Shown here: in pieces, positions 11,806 through 50,567 of the stretch
Position numbering within the stretch: the stretch's first letter is position 1
Layout: the number at the start of each line of letters is the position of its first letter
From: Chloroflexota bacterium
GTDB taxonomy: Bacteria > Chloroflexota > Anaerolineae > UBA2200
Reading direction: 5' to 3'
Assembly: GCA_014360905.1 (NCBI GenBank)
Contig: JACIWW010000023.1
Location: 1 to 50,567 of the forward strand
DNA: 50,567 nucleotides
The notes under the pieces: model-generated
Seen by the model: only the letters and a program-made list of their open reading frames with translations
Databases searched by the model: none
Told to the model about the DNA's origin: nothing
Made by a program: the position numbers and the translations under genes

Positions 11806-12000
11806 GCTCCGCGTGGACAACAATCCGCGCACAAACCATATCGCTCCGCGCGGACAACAGTCCGCGCAAAACGGCTGGGCTGTTGCCTAGCCTGAGCGAA
11901 CTGTATTGCTCTGCGCGGACAACAGTCCGCGCAAAACGGCTGGGCTGTTGCCCAGCCTGAGCGAACTGTATTGCTCTGCGCGGACAACAGTCCGCACCAG
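11806..12000 (+). repeat. AACA/TGTT-loop hairpin cluster upstream of the RAYT gene
   Basis: Includes the left 93-bp direct repeat and then two further partial copies of the unit ctctgcgcggacaacagtcc (from about 11910 and 11970). Each unit pairs a GCGGAC-AACA-GTCCGC hairpin with a CTGGGC-TGTT-GCCCAG hairpin, joined by aaaac. The gene-free stretch ends with taaggaga, the ribosome site of the RAYT gene. Confidence 0.85.
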
Positions 12001-12043: not shown

Positions 12044-12607
12044 TTGAGTACACGCTGGCGACCCATATTTGATCCAACTCATCTCTACTTTGTGACTACA
12101 GCAACAGCCAACCGCACACAGATCTTCCGAAGGGATATCATCAAACGGACTCTTGTAGACGCCCTGTACTTTACCAGTCTGATGAACAATACCCACTTGT
12201 TCGCCTTTGTTGTAATGCCTAATCACATTCACGTCATCATCCAATGCACGGAGGGCTTTCCTCTACAGAAATGGACTCGCGCATTCAAAACGTGTACCTC
12301 GCAATTGATTGTCCGCCTCTATCAAATGGAGCAAAACTGGCATGAGCTGAGCCTTCTCGCCACTGCCGGCACACAAGCTGGGACGCAGAGGTATAAGGTG
12401 TGGGAAAACGGTTATCTAGCTAAGAATGTAGTTGGACCGGAATTCCTGATTCAGAAACTCACGTATATTCACAACAATCCAGTGCAGTCCCATTGGCAAT
12501 TGGCTAGTGCGCCAGAGGAGTACCAATGGTCAAGCGCGCGTTTCTACTTGCAGGATGACAAAGAATGCCTGATTCCCATTCAGGATGTAAGGGAGTTGTT
12601 GGCTTGA
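12044..12607 (+). CDS. rayT: REP-associated tyrosine transposase (RAYT, Y1_Tnp/IS200-like)
   Basis: 187 residues, TTG start at 12044 with aaggaga 5-11 bases upstream. FVVMPNHIHVIIQ contains the HUH metal-binding motif (His-Ile-His) of Y1 transposases. The catalytic Tyr is probably the one in KLTYIHNNPVQ, a signature of the RAYT branch, and the C-terminal YQWSSARFY is also typical. RAYTs are single-copy, non-autonomous-looking HUH nucleases that nick and join single-stranded DNA at REP hairpins. Its location between REP-like hairpin clusters fits that role. The gene appears intact, so the hairpins could still be mobile. Confidence 0.9.
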   Translation: MSTRWRPIFDPTHLYFVTTATANRTQIFRRDIIKRTLVDALYFTSLMNNTHLFAFVVMPNHIHVIIQCTEGFPLQKWTRAFKTCTSQLIVRLYQMEQNWHELSLLATAGTQAGTQRYKVWENGYLAKNVVGPEFLIQKLTYIHNNPVQSHWQLASAPEEYQWSSARFYLQDDKECLIPIQDVRELLA

Positions 12608-12639: not shown

Positions 12640-12822
12640 GGACAGCAATCCTTTCTCTTGCTCTGTGCGGACAGCAGTCCTTTCTCCTGCTCCGCGTGGA
12701 CAACAATCCGCGCACAAACCATATCGCTCCGCGCGGACAACAGTCCGCGCAAAACGGCTGGGCTGTTGCCCAGCCTGAGCGGGTTTGTATCAAAACGGCT
12801 GGGCTGTTGCCCAGCCCAAGCA
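12640..12822 (+). repeat. AACA/TGTT-loop hairpin cluster downstream of the RAYT gene
   Basis: Contains the degraded units gtggacagcaatcc and gtgcggacagcagtcc, then the right-hand 93-bp direct repeat (12689-12781), and a last CGGCTGGGC-TGTT-GCCCAGCC hairpin at about 12796-12817. The start codon of the DUF2723 gene follows within 10 bases, so this cluster lies in its 5' leader. Confidence 0.85.
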
Positions 12823-19984: not shown

Positions 19985-22050
19985 TGCACACCGAAGCCAA
20001 AGTACTGCACAAAGGCATTGACCATCTGCTTGCGGGCGGGACAGTGGAGGAATACCTGGGGCAGGCAGAGGTCAGTCGTTTGCCTGCCTCCAGCCGGGAA
20101 GAATTGCTCTCCCTCCTGGGACTCGCCACCGTTCTGCTACAACTGCGCCAAGTGCCCATCCCCGCACCGCAAGCCAAAGCAGCCAATCGCGCTCGCTTCT
20201 TGGGCGAGGCGGTGCGGCTGAAGGAAGAACGCCGTGTGCAACCCCTGTGGCTCCGGCTGCGCCTCCCAGAGCGGATTGGACGGGGTCTCTTGGGCGCGGC
20301 GCTTGCGGTGATCCTCGTGCTAGCCATTGGCTCAGGAGTGGCCAATGCTGCGGCAAATAGCCTGCCTGGTTCATCGCTGTACCCATTAAAACTGGTGATA
20401 GAGGATGCGCGGCTGGTTTTTGCTTTCAGCCATCCCACACGAACCCAGCTCTACCTGCACTTTGCCAGCGAACGTACGAAGGAGATGGCGCATCTGGCTG
20501 CTGCAGGACGGCCTGTGCACGAGAGCATTGTGATGCGCATGGCGGAAGAATGGCAGGGTGCTGTGCATGCCGCTGCAGCCAGTGGCATGCCACAAGCCCA
20601 TGAGTTGCTCCAGAAGGTGATCGAGACCAGCGACAAGCAGAAGGAAGTATTGCGCCAGGCCAGTATGCAGGCAGCACCGGAGGGACAGGTGCTGTTGGAG
20701 CAGGCCATCGCCGTAACAGAGCAGGCTTCGCGCCAGGCACAAGCAGCGCTGCAGAGTCTGGTTGCGCCCGAGGTCGTGCCCACGCTTACCGTAACAGGGA
20801 TAGACGCAACATGTACTCCAACGGCCATGGCCACGCCAACTACGGTGAGTGGCGGAGGTGTCCCAGCAGTCGCGGCCACGTCAGCCCCAGTGGGTGGTGG
20901 CGGTGCCCCAGCAAGCACGGCTACGCCCGCCCCGGTGAGCGGCGGGGGTGCCCCAACGGTCACGGCCACGCCCACCGCGGTGAATGCAGGGCTTCCTCCC
21001 ACGCTTGCTGCCACACCCACTGAGGTGAGCACACGGTTCACTCCAGCGCCTACTGCCACACCGAGCGCAGAGCCAGGTGCCACACTAACTCCCACCCCCT
21101 CCATCTCATTGCGCATTGCCCTGCGAGATGTGCCCGATCCAGTGCCGGCATCGCACCGCATCCACTACGACGTCTATGTCATCAACGACAGCGATGTGCC
21201 GATGACGAATGTGGTCGTGGTGGTAAGTTGGTCACAGCGCGATTGCATCTACCTATTGCCGGACAACGCCGCGGAAAAGACCTGGACGGTGGGCACGCTC
21301 GAGGCACACAGCACGCATCACATCTATTTCGCGGTGAGCACTTTCGTCATCTGTGCCGGGAACACAGTGACGATGGAAGCGGTGGTGACTTGCGATCAGG
21401 GCACGGCAAGAGCAACGGAGACCACGAGCATTGGCCCTCCGCCCACGCCTACGCCAACGCTCACGCCTACGCCACAGTTCATTTTCCGCGTGACCAATAC
21501 GGATTGGCCAGATCCGGTGCCGGCAGGGTATAATGTCCATTACGATATCTGCGTCGTAAACGATGGGGATGTGCCGCTGACCAACGTTGTCCTTGTGGAC
21601 CGCTGGTCGCCACGTGATTGTGTCTACCTGGCGCCAGATAATCCCGAACAAGTGACCTGGAACATTGGTACGGTACAAGCGCACTCCCGCTATTGCGTGC
21701 ATCTTGTCTTGAGTACATTCAGCATCTGTGCTGGAAATAACGTGACGAACGAGGCAATCATGATCTGTGACCAGGATACAGCGCGTGCTGAGCAAACTAC
21801 ATCCATTGGTCCGCCGCCAGCGGCAATACCGAGACCCACATTGTCGCTTATCTTCACTCCAACCGCGCTGCCTGAGGGTACACCTACTGCGACGTCCACG
21901 TTGCCTCCTCTGGAAACGGTGACTCTGACACCGCCTCCTCTGGAAACGATGACCCCAACGCCGCCACCACTAGAGAACATGACGCCAACGCCCACGCTCA
22001 TCCCGCGCTATGTTGGCCACCTGCGCAGGCAGGACATGGCTGGGGAATGA
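19981..22050 (+). CDS. DUF5667 / anti-sigma-like membrane protein with two DUF11 domains
   Basis: 689 residues. A cytoplasmic N-terminal region of about 98 residues starts with repeated helices like those of anti-sigma zinc-free domains. A transmembrane helix follows (101-122, GLLGAALAVILVLAIGSGVA), then the DUF5667 motif ANSLPGSSLYPLKLVIEDAR with FASERTKEM. Next is a Thr-Pro/Gly-rich linker with repeated VSGGG(A/V)P units, two DUF11-type beta domains (each beginning DPVPA and containing YDVYVINDSDVPMTNVVV or its equivalent), and a final Pro-Thr tail. It overlaps the ECF sigma gene by 4 bases, so it probably holds that sigma at the membrane in response to an outside signal (inference). The last residues (MAGE, stop) are encoded by the GGGGAA-TGAA-TTCCCC palindrome. 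Confidence 0.8.
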   Translation: MMHTEAKVLHKGIDHLLAGGTVEEYLGQAEVSRLPASSREELLSLLGLATVLLQLRQVPIPAPQAKAANRARFLGEAVRLKEERRVQPLWLRLRLPERIGRGLLGAALAVILVLAIGSGVANAAANSLPGSSLYPLKLVIEDARLVFAFSHPTRTQLYLHFASERTKEMAHLAAAGRPVHESIVMRMAEEWQGAVHAAAASGMPQAHELLQKVIETSDKQKEVLRQASMQAAPEGQVLLEQAIAVTEQASRQAQAALQSLVAPEVVPTLTVTGIDATCTPTAMATPTTVSGGGVPAVAATSAPVGGGGAPASTATPAPVSGGGAPTVTATPTAVNAGLPPTLAATPTEVSTRFTPAPTATPSAEPGATLTPTPSISLRIALRDVPDPVPASHRIHYDVYVINDSDVPMTNVVVVVSWSQRDCIYLLPDNAAEKTWTVGTLEAHSTHHIYFAVSTFVICAGNTVTMEAVVTCDQGTARATETTSIGPPPTPTPTLTPTPQFIFRVTNTDWPDPVPAGYNVHYDICVVNDGDVPLTNVVLVDRWSPRDCVYLAPDNPEQVTWNIGTVQAHSRYCVHLVLSTFSICAGNNVTNEAIMICDQDTARAEQTTSIGPPPAAIPRPTLSLIFTPTALPEGTPTATSTLPPLETVTLTPPPLETMTPTPPPLENMTPTPTLIPRYVGHLRRQDMAGE

Positions 22051-22290
22051 ATTCCCCACCTGAATATAAAAAGCCCCTGAAAGGGCTTGGCGCTTTTAGA
22101 CAGGGATTTCAATCCCTGGCAGTGTCATTGCGAGGATCGCTTTTGCGACGAAGCAATGTCGTGGGTGATGAGTAGGGCGGCTTTTCTAGCCACCTTTCCG
22201 CTCGGCGTGGGCAACAGCCCACGCCAGGAATGACGTTGGACTGTGGTCCGCCTGGAGCAGGGCGGCTTTTCTAGCCGCCGTTAATCGGGG
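22029..22290 (+). repeat. Mixed palindrome cassette between the DUF5667 gene and the next gene
   Basis: In order: TGGGGAA-TGAA-TTCCCCA (this contains the stop codon of the upstream gene), an AAGCCCC-TGAAA-GGGCTT variant, CAGGGAT-TTCA-ATCCCTG, a tgtcattgcgaggatcgc element, GGCGTGGGC-AACA-GCCCACGCC (about 22204-22223), and a worn gtccgcctggagc copy, with a repeated gggcggcttttctagcc between. No promoter is clear. Confidence 0.85.
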
Positions 22291-25194: not shown

Positions 25195-25227
25195 TTCCTC
25201 CTCCTTATATATGCCTCACCTCTTGCT

Positions 25228-25260
25228 AGACCTGACGGGTCTCTCAGACCCGTCAGGTCT
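25228..25260. repeat. Perfect 15-bp hairpin, possible terminator
   Basis: AGACCTGACGGGTCT (25228-25242), ctc, AGACCCGTCAGGTCT (25246-25260). A fully paired 15-bp stem with a 3-base loop. It lies in the 257-bp gap inside the phage module, and a MITE is inserted directly at its right end. No T-run follows on either strand. Confidence 0.75.
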
Positions 25261-25266
25261 ATAATA

Positions 25267-41574: not shown

Positions 41575-41790
41575 GCACGCACTGTAGGGGTGCAATTCAA
41601 TTGCGCACCTACAGCGCATGGGCAACATCCCACGCAAAAAGCCCCTCTCCTACGCTGTAGGAGAGGGGGCCGGGGTGAGGCAATCCGAGCGCTGAAGCGC
41701 TCACTACAAACCCACGCCAGGAGACGGCGGACTGTTGTCCGCCTGGATCAAGAAAGGTGAGGCAGGTTCGTAGTGCGCTTCAGTGCGCTA
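41575..41790 (+). repeat. Mixed palindrome cluster upstream of the dehydrogenase gene
   Basis: Contains a gcaattcaattgcgcacc word, a ccccTCTCCTAC-GCT-GTAGGAGAgggg hairpin with a gccggggtgagg tail (about 41641-41680), GAGCGC-TGAA-GCGCTC, GGCGGAC-TGTT-GTCCGCC and a GCGC-TTCA-GTGCGC copy. Together with 41521-41574 and the promoter below, this accounts for the gap of 368 bp. Confidence 0.85.
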
Positions 41791-41888: not shown

Positions 41889-42980
41889 ATGAAAATCGTC
41901 GTTCTGGGTGGCTATGGGGATATGGGTCAGGGTGTGGTGCAGGACCTCATCGCGCACACGCCTGCGGAAGTGGTCATCGCCGACTACCGCGTGGAGGGCG
42001 CGAAGGCATTCGCGGCGCAATTGGGCGAAAGGGCGAGTGCGGTTTTCGTGGATGCCAACGATCCCGCCTCACTGGATGCCGTGCTGCGCGGTGCGGATGC
42101 CGCGGTAGGCGCCATCGGACCGTTCTACCGCTATGCGGCCAAGATGGCGAGCGCGGCGGTCAAAGCCGGGGTCAACTATGTGGACATCTGCGATGACTAT
42201 GGCCCCATTCAGGAGGTCTTTGCCCTGGATGAGGCGGCCAAGGCTGCCGGCGTGACGCTCATCACCGGCCTGGGCTGGACGCCGGGCATCACCAATTTGA
42301 TGTGTCGCCTAGGCGCTTCACGCCTGGACTCGGTGGATGAAATCAAGATCGCCTGGGCTGGCGGGGCAGAGGATTCGCAGGGGCTAGCGGTGGTGATGCA
42401 TGTGTTCTACGCCGTCACCGGCAAAGTGCCCACTTACCGCGATGGGCAATGGGTTGAGGTCGAGGCGGGCAGCGAAAAAGAGCCTGCAGATTTCGGCGGG
42501 GTGCTGGGCACCGTGAAGGTGTTCCACTGTGGACACCCCGAGCCAATGACCGTGCCGCGCTACATCAAGGTACGCACCGTCAGCCTGAAGGGTGCATTGA
42601 CCCCTGAATGGAACAATGCACTGGCCGATGTCTTTGTCAAACTGGGGCTCACCGCCACGCCCAAGCGCATCGAAACTCTCTCCAAGATCATCCACAAAGT
42701 AGAGCATATTCTAGGCAAGGGCGGTGTGCCATTTTCTGGAGCGCGTGTGGATGTCATCGGACAGAAGGATGGCGAGCCATGCACCTACACCTATCGCACG
42801 GTGGATAAAATGAAGCGCCTCACGGGCATCCCGGCGGCGATTGGGGCGTGGATGCTGGCGCAGGGGCAGGTGCTGCACAAGGGTGTCTACGCTCCAGAGG
42901 GCTGCCTGGAGCCAGAGCCCTTCTTCGCCGAATTAGCCAAGCGTGGCATCACGATCGAAGAGATAGTGAGTGCTGGATAA
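41889..42980 (+). CDS. Saccharopine dehydrogenase-like oxidoreductase
   Basis: 363 residues. The N-terminal NAD(P)-binding motif is VVLGGYGDMGQGVVQDLIAH. Then come ADAAVGAIGPFYRYAAKMAS, VNYVDICDDYG (the conserved D-x-x-D region) and LITGLGWTPGITNL. The C-terminal domain includes GGAEDSQGLAVVMHVFYAVT and a late GVYAPEGCLEPEPFFAELAK. The family includes saccharopine reductases, carboxynorspermidine synthases and related enzymes; the true substrate is unclear. The gene has its own promoter. Downstream is the largest palindrome cluster of the window. Confidence 0.9.
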   Translation: MKIVVLGGYGDMGQGVVQDLIAHTPAEVVIADYRVEGAKAFAAQLGERASAVFVDANDPASLDAVLRGADAAVGAIGPFYRYAAKMASAAVKAGVNYVDICDDYGPIQEVFALDEAAKAAGVTLITGLGWTPGITNLMCRLGASRLDSVDEIKIAWAGGAEDSQGLAVVMHVFYAVTGKVPTYRDGQWVEVEAGSEKEPADFGGVLGTVKVFHCGHPEPMTVPRYIKVRTVSLKGALTPEWNNALADVFVKLGLTATPKRIETLSKIIHKVEHILGKGGVPFSGARVDVIGQKDGEPCTYTYRTVDKMKRLTGIPAAIGAWMLAQGQVLHKGVYAPEGCLEPEPFFAELAKRGITIEEIVSAG

Positions 42981-42984
42981 TCAC

Positions 42985-43664
42985 GAGATCGCTTCGGGCG
43001 CAGGGCGCCCTCGCAATGACACCCTTCCCTGCTCCAGGCGGACAACAGCCCGCCGTCTCCTGGCGTGGGTTTGTAGTGAGCGCTTCAGCGCTCATTGATG
43101 CCAGGGATTGAAATCCCTGGCTAAAAAGGAAAAGCCCCTTTCAGGGGCTTTTCACATTCAGCCGGGGAATTCATTCCCCGGCCATGCTCCAGGCACACTG
43201 AAGTGCGCACTACGAACCTGCGGACAACAGTCCGCCGCCATCCCTGGTGCGGGTTTGTAGTGAGCGCTTCAGCGCTCATACGCGCCAGGGATTGAAATCC
43301 CTGGCTAAAAAGGAAAAGCCCCTTTCAGGGGCTTTTCACATTCAGCCGGGGAATTCACGCCCCGGCCATGCTCCAGGCGCACTGAAGTGCGCACTACGAA
43401 CCAGCCCCTTTCAGGGGCTTTTCACATTCAGCCGGGGAATTCATTCCCCGGCCATGCTCCAGGCGCACTGAAGTGCGCACTACGAACCAGCCCCTTTCAG
43501 GGGATTTTCACATTCAGCTGGGGAATCCATTCCCCAGCCACGCTCCAGGCGCACTGAAGTGCGCACTACGAACCTGCTCCAGGCGCACTGAAGTGCGCAC
43601 TACGAACCAGCCCCTTTCAGGGGCTTTTCACATTCAGCCGGGGAATTCATTCCCCGGCCACGCT
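42985..43664 (+). repeat. Large palindrome cassette cluster (about 680 bp)
   Basis: A gene-free array of short palindromes, many in a fixed order: CCAGGGAT-TGAA-ATCCCTGG, AAGCCCC-TTTCA-GGGGCTT, CCGGGGAA-TTCA-TTCCCCGG, GCGCAC-TGAA-GTGCGC, with constant linkers (ctaaaaagga, ttcacattcag, catgctccag, actacgaacc). GAGCGC-TTCA-GCGCTC, GGCGGAC-AACA-GTCCGCC and a degraded GGGAAT-CCA-TTCCC copy also occur. Partial cassettes are repeated side by side several times. It is not a CRISPR array, since the parts are not identical repeats with unique spacers. Confidence 0.92.
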
Positions 43665-43666
43665 CA

Positions 43667-44515
43667 TTACCCAGCTTGTTGCCGCTGACGGTACGCCCGA
43701 ATGTAGCGCATGGCGTATTCGTCGCGTCCCAGGAGCAGATCCGTCGCCAGGACAGCCGGCCTCACTTTGGCGACGTCCACAGTGGGGCAAGTGACGCCTG
43801 CCGCAATGGCCATGGCCAGGAAGGCACTGTTCAGGATGTCGCGGTCGGGCAGACCGAAGGAGATGTTGCTCGCGCCCAGGGTCTGATTCACACCCAGTTC
43901 CGCCTTGACGCGGCGCACCGCCTCCAGCGTCACCAGCGCTACCCGGTTGTCAGTTGCTACGGTGAGCGCCAGGCAGTCGATGATCACGTCCTCGCGTGGG
44001 ATGCCCAGCGCTTCAGCACGCGCGACGATCTTGTGCGCGATGGACACACGGCGGTCGGCATCCTTGGGGATGCCCTCGTCATCCATGGTCAGACCAATGA
44101 CGGCTGCTCCGTATTCTTTGACCAGGGGCAGCACTTCCCGCAGGGATTGCTCCTGGCCACTGACGGAGTTGATGATCGGCTTGCCGCGGTACACCTCAAG
44201 CGCGGCAGCCAGGGCGCGGGGGTTGTCGCTGTCCAGGCAAAGCGGCACATCCACGACCTCCATGACCGCTTGCACTGCCTGGGGCAGCAAAGCGACCTCG
44301 TCCAAGCCAGCGACGCCTACGTTGACATCCAGGATGTCAGCGCCAGCTTGCACTTGGGCGATGGCTTCGCGGCGCACCGGTTCTAGATCGCCAGCCTGCA
44401 AAGCAGCAGCAAGTTTTTTCTTCCCCGTGGGATTGATGCGTTCGCCAATGAGCACGGTCGGCCCATCGGTGCTGATGACCACCTCTTTCACTGCACTCGC
44501 TACCCTTGTCTTCAT
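43667..44515 (-). CDS. Pterin-binding (DHPS-like) corrinoid methyltransferase
   Basis: 282 residues from ATG 44515. The TIM-barrel of the pterin-binding family: VLIGERINPTGKKKLAAALQ, QAGADILDVNVGVAGLDEVA, VPLCLDSDNPRALAAALEVY, GKPIINSVSGQEQ, and QTLGASNISFGLPDRD. These match methyltetrahydrofolate:corrinoid methyltransferases (AcsE, MetH middle domain). It transfers a methyl group between tetrahydrofolate and a cobalamin protein. The RACo-type activator and the MetH-activation-like gene lie directly upstream. ATG 44515 is close to a ggaggag site; a start a few codons later is possible. Confidence 0.9.
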   Translation of the reverse strand: MKTRVASAVKEVVISTDGPTVLIGERINPTGKKKLAAALQAGDLEPVRREAIAQVQAGADILDVNVGVAGLDEVALLPQAVQAVMEVVDVPLCLDSDNPRALAAALEVYRGKPIINSVSGQEQSLREVLPLVKEYGAAVIGLTMDDEGIPKDADRRVSIAHKIVARAEALGIPREDVIIDCLALTVATDNRVALVTLEAVRRVKAELGVNQTLGASNISFGLPDRDILNSAFLAMAIAAGVTCPTVDVAKVRPAVLATDLLLGRDEYAMRYIRAYRQRQQAG

Positions 44516-44537
44516 CTCCTCCCTTTCTTTCGGTTTT

Positions 44538-44605
44538 ACTGTAGAGAGCGCGGAGGTTTCTAATTGATCTCGGCGTTCTCTGCGAGCTCTGCGGTGAGCA
44601 TTTTT
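44538..44605. repeat. Short degenerate gene-end repeat
   Basis: Words such as ggcgttctctgcgagctc and ctgcggtgagcattt, related to the gagaacgcaggg/ccctctgcgttctc inverted repeat at 17169-17213. It lies in the 100-bp spacer between the RACo and methyltransferase genes; no promoter is seen. Confidence 0.45.
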
Positions 44606-44618
44606 AATCCCTTCGCGG

Positions 44619-46430
44619 TTAGGTTCCCAGATACATAGAGGCGGCGAAGAGGCGCTGGAAGTTGGGCACGGTGGCCAGTTCGATGTAGCGCACACGGCGC
44701 GCAATCTCCTGAGCTGCGCGGCGCTTGCTCTCCGAGATAAGCGCCAGCCGCGCCCCTGTCCCAGCAGCATTGCCCACCTGTACGAAGCGCTCCAACGGCA
44801 GCGCCGGCAACATGCCGATGGCAACGGCACTGGACACGTCGATATAAGAGCCGAAAGCACCGGCAATGACCACCCGCTCGATTTCTTCCGTCCTACGCCC
44901 CGCATCCTGCAAGAGCGCCTCGATGCCCGTGCGGATCGCCCCTTTGGCCAATTGCAACTCGCGCACATCGCGCTGGGTAATGGTGATAGCGGGGCTGCCG
45001 CCGCGCTCCTCCTCGTTCACCAGCACGAACTCGCGCTCCCCGTTGCGCACGCGCACCCTGGGATGCTCGCCCATCCTCCCCGACCTGTCCACCACGCCAT
45101 GGAGATAGAGTTGCGCCAACGCATCGAGAATGCCCGAGCCACAGATGCCCACCGGCGGCGCCCCGTCAATGGTCTGGTATTCGACCCAATCGTCCACCAG
45201 GCGCAAGCGCTCAATCGCCCCCGCCGCGGCGCGCATGCCATGCGTGATGTGCGCCCCCTCGAAGGCTGGACCAGAGGCGCAGGAAACGCTGGTCATCTGC
45301 CCATTGCTGGTCAGGCACACTTCGGTGTTGGTGCCAATGTCCAACGCCAGCACCAGCCCGTCCAGGCGCGCCATCTCCGTGGCCAGCAGCATTGCCACGT
45401 GGTCTGCCCCGACAAAGCCCGCGATATTGGGCAAGAGATGCACATACGCGCCAGGTGCGATGCGCAGGCCCACGTCGCGCGCCTTGATATCCAGCGCACT
45501 GCGCACTGCCGGGACGTAGGGAGAAAGCGCCAGTTGGCTGACCGGCAAACGTAGCAGCAAATGGTGCATGGCGGTATTGCCCACCACCACCGCCTCCACA
45601 ATCTGCTCCGGTTTGACTCCTGCCTCTGCCGACAGTTCCTCAGCCAATTGATTCAGCGCCTCCACTGCCAGGGACTGCATGCGCTGTGCCTCAGCCGGGT
45701 CCTTGTGCGTGCGCGAGATGCGCGTGATGACATCTTCCCCATAGGCAATCTGTGGGTTCATCATCCCCCGACTGGACAGCGTGCGCCCCGTCTCCAGATC
45801 GAGCAGGTACCCCGCGATCTTGGTCGTGCCCAAGTCCACCGCCAGCCCGAGCAGGTGAGCATCAGGGGACATGGCAGCGATCCACTCCCCACCCCGCACC
45901 GCAATCCGCAATGTTTCCACATCGCGCAGGGACGCAAATCCCCGCAATAGCTCGATGTCCACGCTCTGACAGCAGACGTCATGCTGCTCTTGCAGCGCCT
46001 GAAGCACGCGCTCGGCATCCGCTTGTGGATCGGCAAGCGAGGGCAACGTCAGGCGCAAGTCATAGCCGCGCACCGGCGGCTCAGGCGCCACCGCCACTTC
46101 CTGCCCTTCCACCTGCGTGCGCTGAGGCGTGCTTAGCGACTCGGGCGGCACGCGCACCTTCAGGTCGCTCAGCGCATATACTTGGCAAGCGAGGCGATAG
46201 CCTTCCTGCAACTCCCTGGCGCTGAGCGCCTCAACCTCCGCCGCCGTGAGCGGGGAAACTTGTCCAGAAAGTATTTGCACCTTGCAGCGTCCGCAGGTTC
46301 CGCTGCCGCCGCACAGGCTGATCAACGCCACGCCCAGTTGCTGAGCGGCGTCCAAGAGCGAGGCATCGGCAGGGCACTCGCCTCGTCTGCCTACCGGTTC
46401 GAAATCAATGTAATAGGTCAAATCTGTCAT
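44619..46430 (-). CDS. RACo-type reductive activator of corrinoid proteins (2Fe-2S + ASKHA)
   Basis: 603 residues, ATG at 46430. The N-terminal ferredoxin domain has CGGSGTCGRCKVQ with a further Cys in YRLACQVYA: four ligands for a 2Fe-2S cluster. A linker follows, then a large ASKHA-fold domain with ATP-binding motifs: LGLAVDLGTTKIAGYLLDLE, VVVGNTAMHHLLLRLP, VLALDIGTNTEVCLTSNG and VVIAGAFGSYIDVSSAVAIG. RACo reduces inactive Co(II) corrinoid to Co(I) at the cost of ATP. It lies between the MetH-activation-like gene (6-base gap) and the pterin methyltransferase, as expected for a methyl-transfer system. Confidence 0.95.
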   Translation of the reverse strand: MTDLTYYIDFEPVGRRGECPADASLLDAAQQLGVALISLCGGSGTCGRCKVQILSGQVSPLTAAEVEALSARELQEGYRLACQVYALSDLKVRVPPESLSTPQRTQVEGQEVAVAPEPPVRGYDLRLTLPSLADPQADAERVLQALQEQHDVCCQSVDIELLRGFASLRDVETLRIAVRGGEWIAAMSPDAHLLGLAVDLGTTKIAGYLLDLETGRTLSSRGMMNPQIAYGEDVITRISRTHKDPAEAQRMQSLAVEALNQLAEELSAEAGVKPEQIVEAVVVGNTAMHHLLLRLPVSQLALSPYVPAVRSALDIKARDVGLRIAPGAYVHLLPNIAGFVGADHVAMLLATEMARLDGLVLALDIGTNTEVCLTSNGQMTSVSCASGPAFEGAHITHGMRAAAGAIERLRLVDDWVEYQTIDGAPPVGICGSGILDALAQLYLHGVVDRSGRMGEHPRVRVRNGEREFVLVNEEERGGSPAITITQRDVRELQLAKGAIRTGIEALLQDAGRRTEEIERVVIAGAFGSYIDVSSAVAIGMLPALPLERFVQVGNAAGTGARLALISESKRRAAQEIARRVRYIELATVPNFQRLFAASMYLGT

Positions 46431-47189: not shown

Positions 47190-47470
47190 CCCCTCTCCTG
47201 CAGCGCAGGAGAGGGGCTTCTAGCGTGGGCTGTTGCCCACGCCGAGCAGAGAGGGTGATAGCCATCAACGAATAGGAGAACGAATAGGAGAACGAATAAA
47301 CGAATGGACTGAGATTCGTTCATTCGTTTTGGCGCAGCCATTCGTTGATGGCAGGTTTGTAGTGAGCGCTTCAGCGCTCATACAGGTTTGTAGTGAGCGC
47401 TTCAGCGCTCATACGCAGGTTTGTAGTGCAGGTTTGTAGTGAGCGCTTCAGCGCTCATACGCCGGCCACG
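47190..47470 (+). repeat. Palindrome cluster and direct repeats between two corrinoid operon parts
   Basis: CCCCTCTCCTGC-AGC-GCAGGAGAGGGG (about 47198-47216), GCGTGGGC-TGTT-GCCCACGC, then three direct gaacgaata words with taggagaac between (47265-47310), cattcgttttggcg, and three successive GAGCGC-TTCA-GCGCTC copies, each preceded by aggtttgtagt. No promoter is clear. It separates the downstream three genes of the corrinoid cluster from the UroD-type methyltransferase. Confidence 0.85.
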
Positions 47471-50203: not shown

Positions 50204-50567
50204 CTTCAGGCGGACAACAGTCCGCCGTGTCCTGGCGTGGGTTTGTAGTGAGCGCTTCAGCGCTCGGATTGCCTCACCCCCGGCCTGGCGTGGGTTTGTA
50301 GTGAGCGCTTCAGCGCTCGGATTGCCTCACCCCCGGCCTGGCGTGGGTTTGTAGTGAGCGCTTCAGCGCTCGGATTGCCTCACCCCCGGCCTGGCGTGGG
50401 TTTGTAGTGAGCGCTTCAGCGCTCGGATTGCCTCACCCCCGGCCTGGCGTGGGTTTGTAGTGAGCGCTTCAGCGCTCGGATTGCCTCACCCCCGGCCTGG
50501 CGTGGGTTTGTAGTGAGCGCTTCAGCGCTCGGATTGCCTCACCCCCGGCCTGGCGTGGGTTTGTAGT
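50204..50567 (+). repeat. 53-bp tandem array built on the GAGCGC-TTCA-GCGCTC palindrome
   Basis: One GGCGGAC-AACA-GTCCGCC palindrome at about 50210-50227 is followed by a tandem repeat whose unit starts ggcgtgggtttgtagtgagc at 50234, 50287, 50340, 50393, 50446, 50499 and 50552. The 53-bp copies are essentially identical and carry the palindrome plus ggattgcctcacccccggcc. Six full copies and a part lie in the window; the array is cut by the window end. Confidence 0.93.

Follow-up and report, generated by a model that had tools for sequence, protein, structure and literature searches.

Constant-loop palindromes of a Chloroflexota contig as REP/REPIN elements, with RAYT transposases that appear to read tag and loop and to tolerate varied stems

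Hairpins with a GTAG tag are known from several REP families as intergenic elements that form dimers and clusters, accompanied by RAYT genes flanked by their own REPs (Di Nocera 2013, PMC3733652; Nunvar 2010, PMC2817692), and the source genome of this study resembles these families in each of these respects. Gammaproteobacterial REPs in which GTAG hairpins with TTCA or TTYA loops are built on other stems have already been published (PMC2817692), with examples in Thioalkalivibrio and Haemophilus influenzae, and many REP loops fit TY according to Di Nocera et al. (PMC3733652). A compilation of 66 REP families made for a published search contains GTAG or GTGG throughout (PMC6006769); in this regard the source genome differs through an AACA/CACA-loop set tagged GCTC and through the P and Q hairpins, tagged TTAG and TCAG. 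The closest biochemical counterparts are the group-3 TnpA-REP enzymes of the Marinomonas (Mb) and Stenotrophomonas (Sm) REPtrons. For the Marinomonas enzyme, the loop TTTA requires bases 1, 2, and 4 and leaves base 3 free, the letters of the stem are of minor importance, a mismatch is harmful, and GTAG guides the position of the cleavage site, with strong selection for the AG of the GTAG motif with the CT site (PMC8266576). The Stenotrophomonas enzyme relies on one critical loop base, and reversal of the loop severely reduced cleavage and compromised binding (PMC8266576).

The window, i.e., the whole 50,567-nucleotide stretch analyzed here, contains 66 perfect inverted repeats (stem of at least 7, loop of 3–8) compared to 18–33 in ten first-order Markov sequences. 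These palindromes are genuine, occur well above chance, and are REP/REPIN elements. The genome was surveyed through whole-genome pattern searches and 40 stretches, of which 20 were selected blind and the other 20 mainly from contigs with known repeats. In the 812,665 bases formed by the window and these stretches, perfect stems of ≥7 bp close a tetraloop 236 times, and the loop is TTCA/TGAA in 88 and AACA/TGTT in 52 (together 59%), with the next commonest loop at 6; because half of the stretches were chosen for holding repeats, the density of palindromes in this sample is not a genome average. The skew in loop usage proposed by the sequence-only reading of the window is thus confirmed. The same reading had claimed that the stems share no sequence, which proved incorrect: the S1 and S2 stems (TGAGCGC and TGCGCAC) are identical at 5/7 positions, the P and Q stems (GCCAGGGAT and GCCGGGGAA) at 7/9, and GGAC or GGGC (GGRC) adjoins the AACA loop in the A and B hairpins. 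Each group also has its own tetranucleotide 5′ of the hairpin, namely GTAG for S1/S2, GCTC for the AACA set, and TTAG or TCAG for P and Q.

Three sets of palindromes share one array (~43031–43658), the GTAG/TTYA set (S1 and S2), the GCTC/AACA set (A and B), and a P-R-Q composite. As had been proposed from the sequence, the hairpin order is fixed and the linkers are constant; two units of ~184 bp precede others spaced at 86 bp. The first unit holds an A-type REP at 43031–43055 (plus strand, tag GCTC, loop AACA, GGACAACAGCCC core at 43040–43051) and an S1 REP at 43073–43094 (plus strand, GTAG and TGAGCGC-TTCA-GCGCTCA), continues through the hairpins P at 43100–43121 (minus strand with the TTAG tag on that strand, GCCAGGGAT-TTCA-ATCCCTGGC), R at 43129–43153 (strand not assigned, (AA)AGCCCC-TTTCA-GGGGCT(TT)), and Q at 43161–43182 (plus strand, TCAG tag, GCCGGGGAA-TTCA-TTCCCCGGC), and includes an S2-like REP at 43192–43213, which reads GTAG and TGCGCAC-TTCA on the minus strand and has one mismatch in the stem. 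The A-type REP of the second unit lies at 43218–43238 (plus strand, GGACAACAGTCC core at 43222–43233) and precedes, within 43257–43397, S1 (43257–43278), P (43284–43305), R (43313–43337), Q (43345–43366), and an S2 on the minus strand that extends to 43397. The remainder, 43403–43658, holds the 86-bp-spaced R-Q-S2 units and one extra S2, with Q at 43637–43658 as the last hairpin.

The array occupies the entire gap between two convergent genes, with stop codons at 42980 and 43667. In the sister genome, the orthologues of these genes (window 41889–44968; 83% identical) are on a single contig, separated by 37 kb, which places the array at a synteny break; an empty site was sought there and none was seen. 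A location between convergent genes would suit an RNA function, in which the hairpins act as intrinsic terminators or 3′-end stabilizers and the constancy of the loop reflects an RNA tetraloop preference, and a position downstream of genes, with plausible transcription, is frequent for REPs elsewhere (PMC3733652). Such a function leaves the unpaired GTAG and GCTC tags unexplained, as well as palindromes that are specific to individual RAYTs and copy numbers that track RAYTs, and an Rfam scan of the window, which returned no family, also counts against it. TTCA and AACA are not known as classic stable RNA tetraloops, which points in the same direction. As the origin of the pattern, an RNA function is judged to be improbable, and a secondary RNA role may exist alongside RAYT mobility. 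A tRNA search of the window returned none.

Palindromes of the same sets occur at several other sites in the window. An A/B REPIN cluster at 1549–2012 (CTGCTTG-CGGCGGAC-AACA.. and ..TGTT-GCCCACGCC-GAGCAGG) has a P-R-Q composite in between, and at 22041–22225 a Q-P composite in reversed order is followed by a B-type REP. At 47223–47457 a B-type REP is accompanied by three S1 REPs of direct orientation (GTAG-TGAGCGC-TTCA), and an A-type REP precedes six S1-type hairpins spaced 37 nt at 50209–50530 (plus strand). The A and B hairpins form inverted, REPIN-like pairs 13–15 nt apart and S1 and S2 are also inverted neighbors, comparable to the REPIN/BIME of E. coli, where two differing REPs (Y and Z) are inverted as a unit (PMC3116915, PMC6006769). 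Unlike the E. coli elements, the palindromes described here are perfect and lack the bulge, and several kinds of REP are mixed in one array.

The S1/S2 palindromes, which have GTAG at the 5′ foot and many dispersed copies, occur at both flanks of a RAYT on contig 16 (contig 16:60604). GTAG/TTYA hairpins likewise occupy both flanks of a 76% identical RAYT in the sister species (C3:15612), whose locus shows full identity to record JACIWX010000011.1 (Chloroflexi bacterium isolate MAG-37) across 2.4 kb. In another genus, a 46% identical member of this RAYT subfamily bears hairpins of the form GTAG...ACGAC-TTCA-GTCGT at one flank, sharing the tag and the loop and differing in the stem. The profile of the contig-16 subfamily matched the E. 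coli TnpA-REP structure 4er8 in the PDB at 5.4e-10. Matches to the pattern GTAGTN6TTYAN6A number 48 in the source genome and 77 in its sister, where the reversed-pattern control gives 9 and 11, respectively; in the remaining members of the family and order that were searched, the pattern is close to background. All six unconstrained stem columns are complementary in 40/48 and 60/77 of the matches in these two genomes. Hairpins of the GTAG family have a TTYA loop; besides TTCA, TTTA is a frequent form, particularly in the sister genome.

A scan with the contig-16 subfamily identified 74 RAYT loci in Cyanobacteria, Chloroflexota, Verrucomicrobia, and others. GTAG-tagged hairpins are present at 47 of the 74, the majority with TTYA. 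When the tag and a perfect 7-bp stem were specified and the loop was left free, the loop was TTCA or TTTA in 74/82; when TTYA and a perfect stem were specified and the tag was left free, the tag was GTAG in 74/84 among the matches listed. At least 16 distinct perfect stems occur under GTAG...TTYA across these loci, together with many elements that have one stem mismatch. Watson-Crick pairing, counted over all 126 distinct elements in place of a hand-picked 47-row alignment, averages 80% compared to 47% for shuffled (maximum 50%) and 17–28% for slid sequences, where the shuffle control leaves sequence relatedness in, and the slid and one-per-locus counts agree in direction. When each locus contributes a single element (37 distinct), pairing at the inner five positions reaches 97–100%, and each of these positions shows several pair types, with changes on both sides of the stem. 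Across phyla, the sequences of the GTAG/TTYA set record stem letters that change, pairing that is held, and a tag and loop that are constant.

These comparisons bear on two further explanations. If a few founder palindromes had merely been duplicated, with loops alike by chance, a small number of stems would be expected, and nearly all copies in the source genome are indeed covered by five stems with TTCA and five with AACA; however, in other genera and phyla, RAYTs of the contig-16 subfamily are accompanied by an unchanged tag and loop on different stems, and founder duplication is the least credible of the explanations considered. The test proposed with the sequence-only reading, founder copies as opposed to independent stem changes, accordingly has a divided outcome, with few founder stems within the genome and paired stem changes under the same tag and loop between species. 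Alternatively, the stems could be rewritten in pairs by copying, through hairpin-templated correction or strand switching, with no protein that is specific for loop or tag. Stems that differ and are nonetheless perfectly paired in most elements would agree with this process, but it does not account for the constant tag and loop or for the link to one RAYT subfamily across phyla, and the many one-mismatch elements fit drift combined with selection for usable substrates. Copying of this kind is very unlikely to be the sole cause, and hairpin-templated correction may contribute alongside RAYT action.

Recognition by the RAYT itself is consistent with the characterized enzymes. The S1/S2 elements share GTAG, a short perfect stem, and the need for pairing with the substrates of the group-3 TnpA-REP (PMC8266576), and the Marinomonas loop, with its free third base, matches TTYA. 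The tag abuts the stem in the S1/S2 set, whereas two bases lie between them in Marinomonas, and the Chloroflexota and cyanobacterial RAYTs are likened to group 3 by tag, stem, and loop. Because this biochemistry and the published TTCA/TTYA REPs agree, recognition of loop and stem can be regarded as already known for the GTAG/TTYA set. It had been suggested from the window that a protein recognizes the loop and the stem length and not the stem sequence. For the GTAG/TTYA set, with its RAYT and its paired changes across phyla, the suggestion is supported in outline, except that it omitted the tag, whose constancy equals that of the loop. As a general rule it fails, since the AACA set changes its loop between sister species and keeps its tag and inner stem.

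That second set has its own RAYT within the window. The gene at 12044–12607 (plus strand) matches NF047646 at 85.4 bits (cut-off 80) and PF01797 at 37.6 bits, scores that lie above the curated cut-offs, and encodes a Y1 domain with the HUH motif (HIH in MPNHIHVI) and the catalytic tyrosine (in YIHNNPV), which identifies it as a RAYT/TnpA-REP (REP-associated tyrosine transposase, Y1/HUH). Searched alone against the PDB, it gave a weak match to the IS200-like transposase 2f4f (E 0.008). GCTC-tagged hairpins lie upstream (11812–11998, plus strand; GCTC-..GCGCGGAC-AACA-GTCCGCGC and the inverted GGCTGGGC-TGTT-GCCCAGCC-tGAGC) and, with the same sequences, downstream (12695–12820, plus strand). The inverted A/B pairs, the 92 core matches, and this RAYT together classify the set as REPINs. 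The foot of the A/B elements is G in 79, C in 80, T in 76, and C in 66 of about 90 elements, and is thus neither GTAG nor GTGG. The TIRtrons (TIRYT) are similar to the window and contig-7 loci in that a RAYT-like gene has non-GTAG repeats on both sides (PMC3733652), but around the window RAYT these are short tagged hairpins arranged as REPIN pairs in place of long terminal inverted repeats.

The GCTC set has a narrow distribution. GGRCAACAGYCC has 92 copies in the source genome and none in one order member, and five family members hold 2–4 copies each. At E 1e-5 there was no match to the window RAYT in the family members examined, and among 400 genomes of the phylum only four others match at 1e-20, which leaves few loci at which the GCTC tag can be tested. 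Near five distant matches (30–46% identity), 7/18 hairpins carry GCTC, in 4/5 loci, compared to 1/68 near other RAYTs of the class and 0/109 near RAYTs of the GTAG subfamily; five loci are few, and this comparison was designed once some of them had already been seen. Between the sister species the loop has switched, with the tag and inner stem kept: GCTC...GGRC elements with the loop CACA number 59 in the sister species and 14 in the source genome, and those with AACA number 2 and 92, respectively. As AACA is not fixed between species, the constancy of the loop within a genome partly represents descent from few founders. We lean towards the interpretation that the RAYT clade that includes the window RAYT uses GCTC, and not GT(A/G)G, as its guide tag, with a fast-changing loop and a retained tag and inner stem. 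If GCTC is the guide, cleavage should adjoin a different dinucleotide. A limited literature search found no report of GCTC-tagged REPs; the overall system is already known, and the newest element here is the GCTC tag with its own RAYT in the same window. The AACA matches are strongly clustered on few contigs (C12, C16, C21, C23, and C40 versus C1–C8), and the AACA-rich contigs have a GC of 0.56–0.61 compared to 0.50–0.54 for C1, C3, and C7, possibly marking a REP-rich region or a second replicon.

The P-R-Q composite, with R between P and Q, has the stems CAGGGAT, AAGCCCC, and CGGGGAA and the loop TTCA. A search through the RAYT loci in four genomes, plus some 30 loci of the class, for a RAYT flanked by P, Q, or R as its cognate palindromes gave none. 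P/Q-type hairpins occur in 9/199 genomes of the class and their tags, TTAG and TCAG, retain the AG for which selection was strong in Marinomonas. The composite is probably carried along or mobilized in trans, and mobilization in trans by the TTYA RAYT would be a guess. A single transposase for all seven palindromes was rejected, with at least two RAYTs involved.

Taken together, the palindromes are very probably non-autonomous REP/REPIN elements that depend on RAYT/TnpA-REP transposases of the IS200/IS605-like Y1 (HUH) type. Two of the three sets flank RAYTs of the source genome with intact catalytic motifs, and copy number tracks the presence of a related RAYT between genomes; that no insertion event was observed counts against this interpretation. 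By analogy to the published biochemistry of related enzymes, the hairpin would fold when the strand is single-stranded, e.g., at a replication fork, and the RAYT would read the bases of the loop together with the tag, the latter as a guide choosing the cleavage site, and require a paired stem of set length with little stem sequence. Cutting and rejoining of the strand would spread REP pairs, and the 184-bp and 86-bp units suggest that tandem duplication of REP-bearing units may then generate arrays such as 42985–43664. Judged from the sequences and from the characterized relatives, RAYTs appear to combine tag-and-loop recognition with a tolerance of stem variety, and the pattern of a constant loop and a changing stem can be explained as the footprint of this recognition. 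Dozens of natural RAYT loci across phyla display what in vitro work demonstrated for few enzymes, a tag and loop that are held and stem letters that are free if paired. The GCTC set and its RAYT in the window offer a test case for the guide-sequence model, as an altered tag should shift the position of cleavage in a predictable way.

The RAYTs of the window, contig 16, and contig 7 are flanked by different hairpins, such that each RAYT has its own palindrome, as described for REPtrons (PMC3733652, PMC3686654). The third RAYT of the source genome (contig C7:29092–29496) has the flanking palindrome GGACTGCTGAAGC-CTYG-GCTTCAGCAGTCC. Around a RAYT in another genome of the class there are 17 GTAG-tagged GTGCGGTT hairpins with three-base loops (ttc/ttt), a further tag-constant family with a different loop. 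The window also contains a further long repeated palindrome, CCCCTCTCCTAC-GCT-GTAGGAGAGGGG, and a near copy (41642–41668 and 47190–47216), which elsewhere in the genome is frequently directly 3′ of B-type REPs. A lone perfect 16-bp palindrome, TAGACCTGACGGGTCT-CTC-AGACCCGTCAGGTCTA, is present at 25227–25261, and the sister genome has a similar palindrome downstream of its orthologue of the gene at 41889–42980.
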